Shown here: positions 5,951 to 37,133 of the stretch, one piece after another
How positions within the stretch are numbered: the first letter of the stretch is position 1
Layout: each line of letters opens with the position of its first letter
Origin: Myxococcus guangdongensis
GTDB lineage: Bacteria > Myxococcota > Myxococcia > Myxococcales > Myxococcaceae
Assembly (NCBI RefSeq): GCF_024198255.1
Contig: NZ_JAJVKW010000008.1
Location: forward strand, 1 to 64,000
Length of the DNA: 64,000 bases
Direction of reading: 5' to 3'
The notes under the pieces: model-generated
Seen by the model: only the letters and a program-made list of their open reading frames with translations
What the model was told of the DNA's origin: nothing
Database searches by the model: none
Position numbers and translations under genes: made by a program

Positions 5951-6352
<402 letters not shown>

Positions 6353-33500: not shown

Positions 33501-34436
33501 ATGCCGCGATTCGCCACCATCGACATCGGTACCAACTCCGTGCTGTTGCTGGTCGCGGAGCGCACCGAGGAAGGCCGCTTCGAAGCCGTCCTCGAGCGCG
33601 CTGAAATCACCCGCCTGGGACGTGGCGTGGACGCCACCCGCCGCCTGTCCCCCGAGGGCATGGAGGCCACGCTGTCGGTGCTCGAGGCCTTCGCGCGAGA
33701 GGCCCGTGAGCAGGGCGCGCAGGACATCGCCGTGTCCGCCACCAGCGCGGCGCGAGACGCGGTGAACGGCGCGGAGTTCCTCGAGGCCGCGAAGACGCGC
33801 GCGGGCGTCACGGTGGAGATCATCTCCGGGCAGTTGGAGGCGGAGCTGTCGTTCGCCGCGGTGAGCTCGGACTTCGCGGGAGAGGCGGCCGGGCCCCTGC
33901 TGGTACTGGACATCGGCGGCGGCTCCACCGAGTTCATCTACGGCAACCCCGCGGGCCACGTGGACTTCCGTCACAGCTTCGACGTGGGCGCGGTGCGGCT
34001 CACCGAGCGCTTCGTGAGTTCGGACCCGATGTCCTCCGAGGACCGCGCGCGCATCCAGGCGCATCTGCGCGACACGTTCAAGGCCTTGCCGCCTCCGCCT
34101 CCCGCCTCGGTGCTCGTGGGCGTGGCGGGTACGGTGACCACGGTGTACGCGGTGAAGCACGCCATCGACCCGTACGACGCGGCCCGGGTGCACGGCGGCA
34201 CGCTGTCGGTGGGTGAGCTGGGCGCGCTGGTGGACCAGCTGTGTCAGCAGCCCCTGGAGGCGCGGCGCGCACTGCCGGGCATGCAGCCCAAGCGCGCGGA
34301 CGTCATCCCCGCGGGTGCGCTCATCCTGCTGGAGGCGGTGAAGGCGCTGGGGCTGGATGGCTGCCGGGTGAGTGACCGGGGTTTGAGATGGGGACTGCTC
34401 GCGCACCGCTTCGGCGCGGGAGCTTCCCGTTCATGA
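33501..34436 (+). CDS. exopolyphosphatase / guanosine pentaphosphatase (Ppx/GppA)
   Basis: 311 residues from ATG 33501. ASKHA fold: FATIDIGTNSVLLLVAE (phosphate 1), LVLDIGGGSTEFIYG (phosphate 2), and VGVAGTVTTVYAV (adenosine motif). It is the short form that lacks the C-terminal HD-like domain of E. coli Ppx (about 510 residues), like mycobacterial and other Ppx-like proteins. Hydrolyses polyphosphate or pppGpp. Its stop overlaps the start of the next transporter gene (ATGA), so translation is coupled. Confidence 0.9.
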   Translation: MPRFATIDIGTNSVLLLVAERTEEGRFEAVLERAEITRLGRGVDATRRLSPEGMEATLSVLEAFAREAREQGAQDIAVSATSAARDAVNGAEFLEAAKTRAGVTVEIISGQLEAELSFAAVSSDFAGEAAGPLLVLDIGGGSTEFIYGNPAGHVDFRHSFDVGAVRLTERFVSSDPMSSEDRARIQAHLRDTFKALPPPPPASVLVGVAGTVTTVYAVKHAIDPYDAARVHGGTLSVGELGALVDQLCQQPLEARRALPGMQPKRADVIPAGALILLEAVKALGLDGCRVSDRGLRWGLLAHRFGAGASRS

Positions 34437-35734
34437 GCGCGCCCTCCGTGAGCGTCTCTCCGACTCCGTCTCCGTCCCCCTCGCCCACCACCACGCCCGC
34501 GGCTCCGGCGGCGAACGCCGGCTACGCGCTGCTCATCCTCACGCTCATCAACCTGGTCAACTACCTCGACCGATACATCGTCGCGGTGGCGCTGCCGGGC
34601 ATCCAGAAGGAGTTTGGCATCAACGACACCCAGTCGGGCCTGCTCGGCACCATGTTCATCGTGGTGTTCATGCTGGCCTCGCCGCTGGGTGGCTTTCTCG
34701 GTGACAGATATCCGCGCAGGCTGCTGGTCGCGGGCGGCGTGCTGTTGTGGAGTCTCGCCACGGGAGCCAGCGGGCTCGCCACGTCCTTCGTCGCGCTGCT
34801 CGTCGCTCGCGCGGTGATTGGCATCGGCGAGGCGGGCTATGGCGCGGTGGCGCCGAGCATCATCTCGGACCTCTACCCTCGTGAGCGGCGCACGCGGATG
34901 CTGGCGCTCTTCTACATCGCCATCCCGGTGGGAGCGGCCGCGGGTTATGGCCTGGGCGGGTGGCTGACGCAGAAGTATTCGTGGCACGTGGCCTTCTTCG
35001 CCGGAGGCGTGCCGGGCCTGATTCTGGGCGCGATGGCGTTCTTCATGCCGGAGCCCCAGCGCGGCGCCATGGACGGCCCGGACGCGCAGGTGAAGATGCC
35101 CTTCATGGTCGGCCTGAGAGGCCTGGGGCGCAACGCGGCCTTCTGGGCGGTGACGGCGGGCTACACGCTGATGACGTTCTCCATCGGCGGCCTGGGCTTC
35201 TGGATGCCGACGTACCTGGTGCGCGAGCGCGCCATGTCGGCGGACAGCTCCGGGTTCCTCTTCGGCGCGATTACCGCGGTGGCGGGCTTGTTGGGCACCG
35301 TGGCCGGTGGCTGGCTGGGCGACAAGTTGGACCGCAAGCGCGAGGGTGGCGGCCTGTGGATGTCGGGCATCGGCCTGCTGCTCGCGGCGCCGTGCATGTA
35401 CCTGGCGGTGCATCTGAAGGACGTGGGGCCCACGTTCGCGGCCATCGGCGCCGCGCAGTTCCTCATCTTCCTCAACAGCGGCCCCATCAACGCGGCCATC
35501 GTCAACTGCGTACCGCCCGCGTTCCGCGCCTTCGCGATGGGGCTCAACGTGCTGTGCATCCACCTGCTCGGGGATGCGATTTCGCCCACGCTCATCGGCA
35601 ACATCGCCGACGCGTCGAACCTGCGTACCGCCATCGCGGTGAACGCCCTGCCCGTACTGCTCGGCGGACTGGCGTTGCTGGTTGGCGCGCGGTTGTTCCG
35701 GGACGCGGTGCCTCGGGAGCGCGCTACCGCCTGA
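34433..35734 (+). CDS. Spinster-like MFS transporter
   Basis: 433 residues from ATG 34433. A 30-residue Ser/Pro/Thr-rich leader precedes twelve membrane segments. Typical Spns features: NLVNYLDRYIVAVALPGIQKEF, the MFS motif A GGFLGDRYPRR, and IGIGEAGYGAVAPSIISDLYP. Bacterial Spns proteins are related to animal sphingosine-1-phosphate and lysophospholipid transporters; substrate here is inferred only from family. The final codons (RERATA, stop) lie inside a duplicated segment shared with the next gene, read antisense. Confidence 0.9.
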   Translation: MSAPSVSVSPTPSPSPSPTTTPAAPAANAGYALLILTLINLVNYLDRYIVAVALPGIQKEFGINDTQSGLLGTMFIVVFMLASPLGGFLGDRYPRRLLVAGGVLLWSLATGASGLATSFVALLVARAVIGIGEAGYGAVAPSIISDLYPRERRTRMLALFYIAIPVGAAAGYGLGGWLTQKYSWHVAFFAGGVPGLILGAMAFFMPEPQRGAMDGPDAQVKMPFMVGLRGLGRNAAFWAVTAGYTLMTFSIGGLGFWMPTYLVRERAMSADSSGFLFGAITAVAGLLGTVAGGWLGDKLDRKREGGGLWMSGIGLLLAAPCMYLAVHLKDVGPTFAAIGAAQFLIFLNSGPINAAIVNCVPPAFRAFAMGLNVLCIHLLGDAISPTLIGNIADASNLRTAIAVNALPVLLGGLALLVGARLFRDAVPRERATA

Positions 35735-35930
35735 CCCGCCAGCCGCTCCACCTCCATGGCCAGCCGCTCGCCACCCGCGAGCAGCAGCGCCTTGAGGCGC
35801 GCGGTTGCCTGGCGCGCTACCGCCTGACGGCGTCCACCTTCGGCCGGTACTCGTCCGCCAGTCGCTCCACCTCCGTGGCCAGCCGCTCGCCATCCGCGAG
35901 CAGCAGCGCCTTGAGGCGCGCGCGGTTGCC
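35719..35930. repeat. tandem duplication of the acyltransferase 3' end
   Basis: Two adjacent copies. Copy A is 35719-35809 and copy B is 35812-35930. They share a perfect 17-base block (35719-35735 and 35812-35828). They also share a block of 74-76 bases (35736-35809 and 35855-35930) that differs by three substitutions and a two-base gap. Copy A lacks 26 bases present in B. Copy B is the true 3' end of the acyltransferase gene. Copy A still encodes the near-identical peptide ARLKALLLAGGERLAMEVERLAG on the minus strand, and carries the last codons and stop of the MFS gene on the plus strand. Confidence 0.85.
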
Positions 35931-37133
35931 CAGCATGAAGAACACGTCCACGTCCCGCCGCAGCACATCCGAGCGTTCGGAGAAGTAGAGCGTGAAGAGC
36001 GCCAGCGGCGGCACCGCGACGAAGGTAAACAACGCGAGGAACGCCCCCCCCAGCACGCCCGCCGTCACGGTGAGCGCCGCCCACCAGACGAGCATCACGA
36101 CGAAGCCCGTGAGGAACTTCACCGTGGCCTGCACATCGAGCTCCGCCTTGCGGCTGGCGGCCCGAGGCACCTGGTACGGCAGCCAGAAGAGCACGAGCCC
36201 CAATACGAACAGCGGCAGTCCGAACACGAGCGCGAGCAGGTTCTTCACGATGAACGACGTGACATTGCCCGGACGGTAGACGAGCGCCAGGTCCGACGGC
36301 CCTGTCGCGTGCACCAGGTCCAGCCGCCGCTTGAAGGACGTGAGCTGTGCACGCAAATCCTCGAAGCGCTCCGGCTCCTGCGTGCGGAACAACTGCACCC
36401 CACGCGCCCACAGGCGCAGTCGCTCCGCGTCCAGCGCCCCGCCCTGCTTGAACGCGAAGAGCTGCTCGGCGAGCTGAATCAACGGCAGGTCCGCCCACTG
36501 CTCCAGGTTGAGCGTCACCGCGCGCAGTCCCTCGGCGATGCGCTCGGTCAGAGCGCGCACCGACTCCTGCTCCGAAGCGGCATCCGCGGGCTGGAACGCA
36601 GTCGCATCAATGGCCGGCCCCACGTCGATGAGGACCTCGCTGCGGAAGACGTGCTTCTCCGCGTACGTGAGGCCCACGGGGACGATGCGCACCGGCGCGC
36701 CCTCGCGGACGGCACTCAGCGCGATGCGCGACGCCCCCGTCTTCAGCTCCGCGAGACCTGGCTCCGAGTGACTCTTGCCCTCGGGGAAGATGGTGATGGC
36801 GCGGCCCTGCACGAGCGCGCCCTTGGCGGCGTCGAGCGTGCCCTCGTTCCCCCCCATCTTCGTCGGGTCATCCTGCTTGCGATACACGGGCAGCGCGTCG
36901 AGCCCCTTCAGCAGCCAGCCGATGACGGGCATCCGGAACAGCGGCGCCTTCGCGAGGAAGGTCACCTTGCGGCGCGTGAGGATGAAGACGAGCCCCGGGT
37001 CGATGAGCCCATTGGGATGGTTGCCCACGAACAGCACGGGCCCCTCGGGCTCGGCGCCGGAGGCATTCACCTTCACCCGGTAGAACAGGCGCAGACACAC
37101 CGCCACCACGGCACGGACACAGGCGTAGAACAC
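35817..37133 (-). CDS. 1-acyl-sn-glycerol-3-phosphate acyltransferase-like protein
   Basis: 438 residues. The N-terminal 210 are a PlsC-type acyltransferase: GNHPNGLIDPG (His-x5-Asp rather than the common His-x4-Asp, as in eukaryotic Gpt-like members), FPEGKSHSEP, and PVRIVPVGLTY. The C-terminal half has two or three membrane segments (LLALVFGLPLFVLGLVLFWLPY, FLTGFVVMLVWWAALTVTAGVLGGAFLALF) and a helical tail. Probably acylates a glycerophosphate or ether-lipid precursor. GTG start with weak binding site. The 3' end has a partial duplicate directly downstream. Last gene of the long minus-strand block. Confidence 0.85.
   Translation of the reverse strand: MFYACVRAVVAVCLRLFYRVKVNASGAEPEGPVLFVGNHPNGLIDPGLVFILTRRKVTFLAKAPLFRMPVIGWLLKGLDALPVYRKQDDPTKMGGNEGTLDAAKGALVQGRAITIFPEGKSHSEPGLAELKTGASRIALSAVREGAPVRIVPVGLTYAEKHVFRSEVLIDVGPAIDATAFQPADAASEQESVRALTERIAEGLRAVTLNLEQWADLPLIQLAEQLFAFKQGGALDAERLRLWARGVQLFRTQEPERFEDLRAQLTSFKRRLDLVHATGPSDLALVYRPGNVTSFIVKNLLALVFGLPLFVLGLVLFWLPYQVPRAASRKAELDVQATVKFLTGFVVMLVWWAALTVTAGVLGGAFLALFTFVAVPPLALFTLYFSERSDVLRRDVDVFFMLGNRARLKALLLADGERLATEVERLADEYRPKVDAVRR

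Follow-up and report, generated by a model that had tools for sequence, protein, structure and literature searches.

A recent tandem duplication at a convergent gene junction of Myxococcus guangdongensis and the loss of an ancestral gene overlap

Our analysis of a 64,000-nucleotide stretch of the Myxococcus guangdongensis genome (the window) shows a short tandem duplication where an MFS transporter gene and a PlsC-like acyltransferase gene meet tail to tail. The event is real, recent and ordinary, and the two gene ends were inherited, not rewritten. We put a probability of roughly 0.9 on the reading that a neutral duplication, private to this lineage and younger than its split from a near relative (genome G005), removed an overlap between the two genes and left behind a copy that is decaying. 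According to this history, the ancestral genes would have overlapped by 11 nt, with both stop codons lying within CTACCGCCTGA. After the split from G005, about 119 to 122 nt spanning the overlap and the acyltransferase 3′ end would have been duplicated in tandem. The left copy would have retained the transporter end and the right copy that of the acyltransferase, so that the overlap disappeared while neither stop codon was created or moved; each gene would have kept a copy of its end because the duplication spanned the end that they shared. The left copy, released from coding for the acyltransferase, would then have decayed through two deletions and three substitutions.

Layout of the junction

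The features of the junction are as follows (window coordinates).

34388..35734, plus strand: MFS transporter gene (open reading frame; Pfam MFS_1, E = 2.5e-56), with an in-frame ATG at 34433 as an alternative start
35719..35809: left (outer) copy, 91 nt, with deletions of 26 nt and 2 nt and three substitutions when aligned with the right copy
35735..35816: new 82-nt spacer separating the two stop codons, almost all of it left copy
35810..35811: TG between the copies, interpreted as filler where they were joined; inspection by eye showed no match to either breakpoint flank in G005
35812..35930: right (inner) copy, 119 nt, carrying the working acyltransferase 3′ end
35817..37133, minus strand: acyltransferase (PlsC-like) gene, convergent with the MFS gene (open reading frame; Pfam Acyltransferase, E = 1.9e-18)

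The first-pass annotation was correct that the segment is present twice, at 35719-35809 and 35812-35930, and that the MFS gene terminates within the outer copy, where its last codons and TGA stop (35732-35734) are located. The acyltransferase stop (CTA on the plus strand, 35817-35819) is in the right copy. The trimming of the left copy by 26 bases and its three substitutions were also described accurately, although an additional 2-nt deletion, in the GC-rich run preceding GGTTGCC, was overlooked. The repeat is far above chance, since aligning the 3′ end of the acyltransferase gene locally with the spacer gave a score of 127, compared with at most 39 in 500 dinucleotide shuffles. The two copies are thus adjacent, head to tail and similar well beyond chance, as in a tandem segmental duplication. 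The right copy is 95.1% identical to its single-copy, 122-nt counterpart in G005 (across 122 columns, gaps counted). A mobile element or dispersed repeat was rejected, as window positions 35700-35960 matched one place only in the genome at E <= 0.001 (40 of 478 first-look candidates scored).

It had also been proposed that the remnant still encodes the acyltransferase peptide in frame. This holds for the internal stretch RLKALLLAGGERLAMEVERLAG only, and the phase of that stretch differs from that of the acyltransferase gene. On the minus strand, the left copy contains the open stretch QATARLKALLLAGGERLAMEVERLAGQAVAR, again in a phase unlike that of the gene. Because of the two deletions, the left-copy matches to the first (GNRA) and last (VRR-stop) parts of the duplicated tail fall in the other two frames, so the closing VRR-stop does not share a frame with RLKALLLAGGERLAMEVERLAG and the peptide is incomplete. 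The acyltransferase gene itself ends short of the left copy, whose peptide remnant lacks the acyltransferase C-terminus.

Other features of the window were recorded as well. The acyltransferase C-terminus has a 21-nt internal repeat of its own (1.9 copies at 35857-35896; Tandem Repeats Finder), a bacterial RNase P RNA of class A lies at 5956-6351 (302 bits), and no tRNA genes were found in the window.

Age of the duplication and fate of the left copy

A DNA search of the genus gave a match in 27 of 27 genomes, including the window's own, and the junction was taken from the 26 others. The collection has one genome per species, and the species of the window is represented by one genome. Within the stretches fetched, each junction was compared with itself, the queries being its own acyltransferase (151 nt) and MFS (80 nt) 3′ ends, at E up to 0.001. 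By this measure a second copy was present in the window only and in none of the 26 congeners. When the unit from the window was used as the query, it returned the expected single match. Additional short matches were one of 19 to 23 nt in G011, where the MFS gene ends, and weak ones of 21 and 43 nt farther inside the acyltransferase gene (G011, G022, G023 and G012). In a tree built from 27 rows and 724 columns outside the junction, 7 of 24 inner branches were weak, and the window genome (G000) and G005 formed a sister pair with support of 100/100. The proposal of a recent tandem duplication at this convergent junction is therefore supported, with two copies here and no second copy in any congener, the sister genome included.

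Every change that separates the two copies took place in the left one. The right copy agrees with G005 at all three substitution sites, which identifies the left copy as the changed one. The left copy also carries both deletions, and the bases it has lost are present in G005. Compared with G005, the right copy shows three substitutions and a 3-nt loss. Two of these substitutions are common to the left copy and thus have no bearing on its decay, and the third is located where the left copy is deleted. The 3-nt loss, the sole change observed at either gene end, removed one acyltransferase codon (VDAVRR in the window versus VDAAVRR in G005), and it cannot be placed before or after the duplication since the left copy has lost that stretch. 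Divergence of the left copy is 3/91, or 0.033 per site, and with so few substitutions the 95% limits extend from 0.007 to 0.096. Corrected divergence between the window and G005 at fourfold sites, per pair, is 0.13 for the MFS gene (27/225 sites) and 0.20 for the acyltransferase gene (26/149). Set against these values, the left copy appears compatible, within wide limits, with unconstrained, neutral change over part of the time since the G005 split.

The breakpoints in G005 can be written as GGGA/GCGCGCTACC and GGTTGCC/CAGCATG, and the joint in the window reads GGTTGCC-TG-GCGCGCTACC. Given the two filler bases, and with little sign of microhomology when inspected by eye, the segments were probably joined by end joining or replication slippage, and the TG filler fits end joining. 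The joint slightly resembles the MFS tail (score 26, with 3 of 500 shuffles as high), which would allow for a longer initial duplication that was trimmed afterwards. This weak resemblance could also go back to GCGCGGTTG, a short repeat shared by the MFS tail and the 3′ end of the acyltransferase gene: if already present, its copies could have paired and produced a unit of about 140 nt with a joint trimmed later. Such pairing is possible, given the sites of GGCGCGCGGTTG (35684 and 35796) and of CGCGCGCGGTTG (35917). However, the left copy continues as GGTTGCC, like the acyltransferase gene, and not as GGTTGTT, like the MFS gene. Further, with GCGCGACTG at the MFS site in G005, the repeat was perhaps not yet there when the duplication took place. 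Repeat pairing fits the joint less well, and we regard it as unlikely.

A different question is whether the left copy has been kept because it is useful, either by separating the convergent genes and reducing overlap of their antisense transcripts or by providing a folded RNA end or terminator. The minus strand at 35730-35820 does score better in folding than most shuffled versions (z -2.78; 2 of 200 did as well), and the same overlap was also lost in a second lineage (G003 and G011, described below). Nevertheless, four overlapping stretches were folded and the other three gave z values of -0.65, -1.23 and -1.31, and the core of the hairpin at 35730-35820 also occurs in the right, coding copy. 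The confinement of all between-copy differences to the left copy likewise speaks against usefulness. A scan of 35500-36100 found three terminator-like sites on the minus strand, one at 35948-35963 and two overlapping at 36035-36052. All three are inside the acyltransferase gene and none is in the spacer (35735-35816). With no such site in the spacer and a single fold of four standing out, a terminator made by the duplication was rejected. We consider retention for a useful role quite improbable and favor a neutral duplication whose redundant copy is decaying.

The ancestral overlap and a second loss

Both genes were found at the junction in 26 of 26 congeners. The distance from stop to stop is -11 nt in eight of them (G005, G019, G007, G008, G016, G018, G017 and G002), -10 in six, -4 in two, 0 in one and +4 to +9 in five; it is +72 in G020, +168 in G003, +226 in G011 and +4442 in G004. 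The pair therefore overlaps in relatives (-11, -10 or -4) versus a separation of +82 in the window, which is a loss of a convergent overlap. In G005, the 11-nt overlap combines the TGA of the transporter with the TAG of the acyltransferase on the other strand. RERATA-stop is the transporter terminus in the window, G005 and G008 alike, and an alteration of this C-terminus by the duplication was not found in comparison with these two genomes. The first-pass annotation had anticipated a single copy and a different MFS C-terminus in close relatives; the former is what the nearest relative, G005, has, and the MFS C-terminus there is unchanged. Although the transporter stop does lie within the left copy, the idea that the duplication rewrote both gene ends, with the antisense of an acyltransferase copy replacing the original transporter 3′ end and supplying its last codons and stop, is hardly credible (and in the form first proposed is refuted), given the same terminus in single-copy G005 and G008 and the 11-nt overlap with both stops inside it, which eight of the 26 congeners and two genomes of a different genus share.

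Outside the genus, the acyltransferase gave a match in 55 of 63 genomes at E <= 1e-60, and 17 fetched loci were examined with up to 1.5 kb on each side. The MFS gene adjoins the acyltransferase gene in 3 of these 17 genomes, at distances of -11, -11 and 0 nt (the last in G040). The two 11-nt cases, both from one other genus, make it probable that the overlap is old, and its depth rests on these two genomes. Within Myxococcus, no member of a seven-species clade (G026, G020, G001, G015, G004, G014 and G010) has the overlap. Two side observations were made on the fetched loci. In G004 (L049), the approximately 4.4 kb between the two genes contain several open reading frames, one of them LysM-like and peptidoglycan-binding-like by eye. 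Locus L066, titled Comamonas sp. KCTC 72670, is probably mislabeled, since it carries this Myxococcus locus at 85% protein identity.

A second lineage lost the same overlap separately from the window. M. eversor (G003) and M. qinghaiensis (G011) are sisters (99/97), and their next relative, G008, keeps the 11-nt overlap (99/97). Their spacers (L036:560-727, 168 nt in M. eversor; L034:586-811, 226 nt in M. qinghaiensis) are related to each other and not to that of the window. The shared 11 nt are present at both edges, 10 of 11 being identical in each, so each gene kept a copy of its end there too. In G020, G014, G026 and G004, the shared end was not seen at both edges (2 to 4 of 11 identical). 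The G003 and G011 spacers contain internal repeats and the palindrome-like GCCGAGAGGCGCCTCTCAGC. A further piece resembling the MFS tail was found in the G011 spacer (with a score of 33 that 1 of 500 shuffles reached, against 14 of 500 in the G003 comparison), where eight comparisons were made and the two spacers, being homologous, are not independent. The junction self-comparison (E up to 0.001) did not report the spacer of either species. These spacers could stem from a local duplication that has since degraded, or from an insertion with duplication of its target site. A dispersed element found no support: a 215-nt spacer query of seven genomes returned its own site in G011, the G003 counterpart and one 33-nt match elsewhere in G011. 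A 20-nt motif from the spacer was likewise set aside, being not clearly commoner than its reversed control in six genomes (up to two mismatches); its exact matches in those genomes were at this junction only. It is a tentative and rather doubtful idea that convergent overlaps in Myxococcus are repeatedly separated by local events that copy the shared end and leave the stops unmoved, as would have happened here and independently in the ancestor of G003 and G011.

Comparison with known systems

Short tandem duplications with a few filler bases are a known kind of event. The duplication described here resembles them in being about 120 nt long and head to tail, with two filler bases and a redundant copy that decays, and no difference is apparent except for its position at a gene junction. 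As a single event it is of little consequence. It does provide a clean, polarized example of the loss of a convergent overlap, in which the shared end is duplicated and each gene keeps one copy, and if such events were common, they would give overlapping genes a simple, neutral way to become separate.

Among the titles listed by our literature search, none describes the loss of a convergent overlap by tandem duplication, and we do not claim that the process is absent from print. Words beginning with "duplication" are absent from the main texts of PMC4161906, PMC3843671 and PMC2174442. PMC4161906 reports a high turnover of overlaps, discusses moving start and stop codons and states that published studies treat the creation of overlaps, not their loss. 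In PMC3843671, overlapping pairs in Salmonella are followed as kept, separated or lost, and the separated and lost pairs are counted. Table 2 of PMC2174442 counts 1890 convergent overlaps. The ancestral 11-nt state inferred here is of the short convergent kind covered in PMC2174442, and the window has lost it. As in the cases of overlap loss in PMC4161906 and PMC3843671, neighboring genes here overlap in some of the relatives but lie apart in others. The difference lies in the route: where PMC4161906 has start and stop codons moving, the stops at this junction stayed in place, and a tandem duplication would have carried the two gene ends apart.
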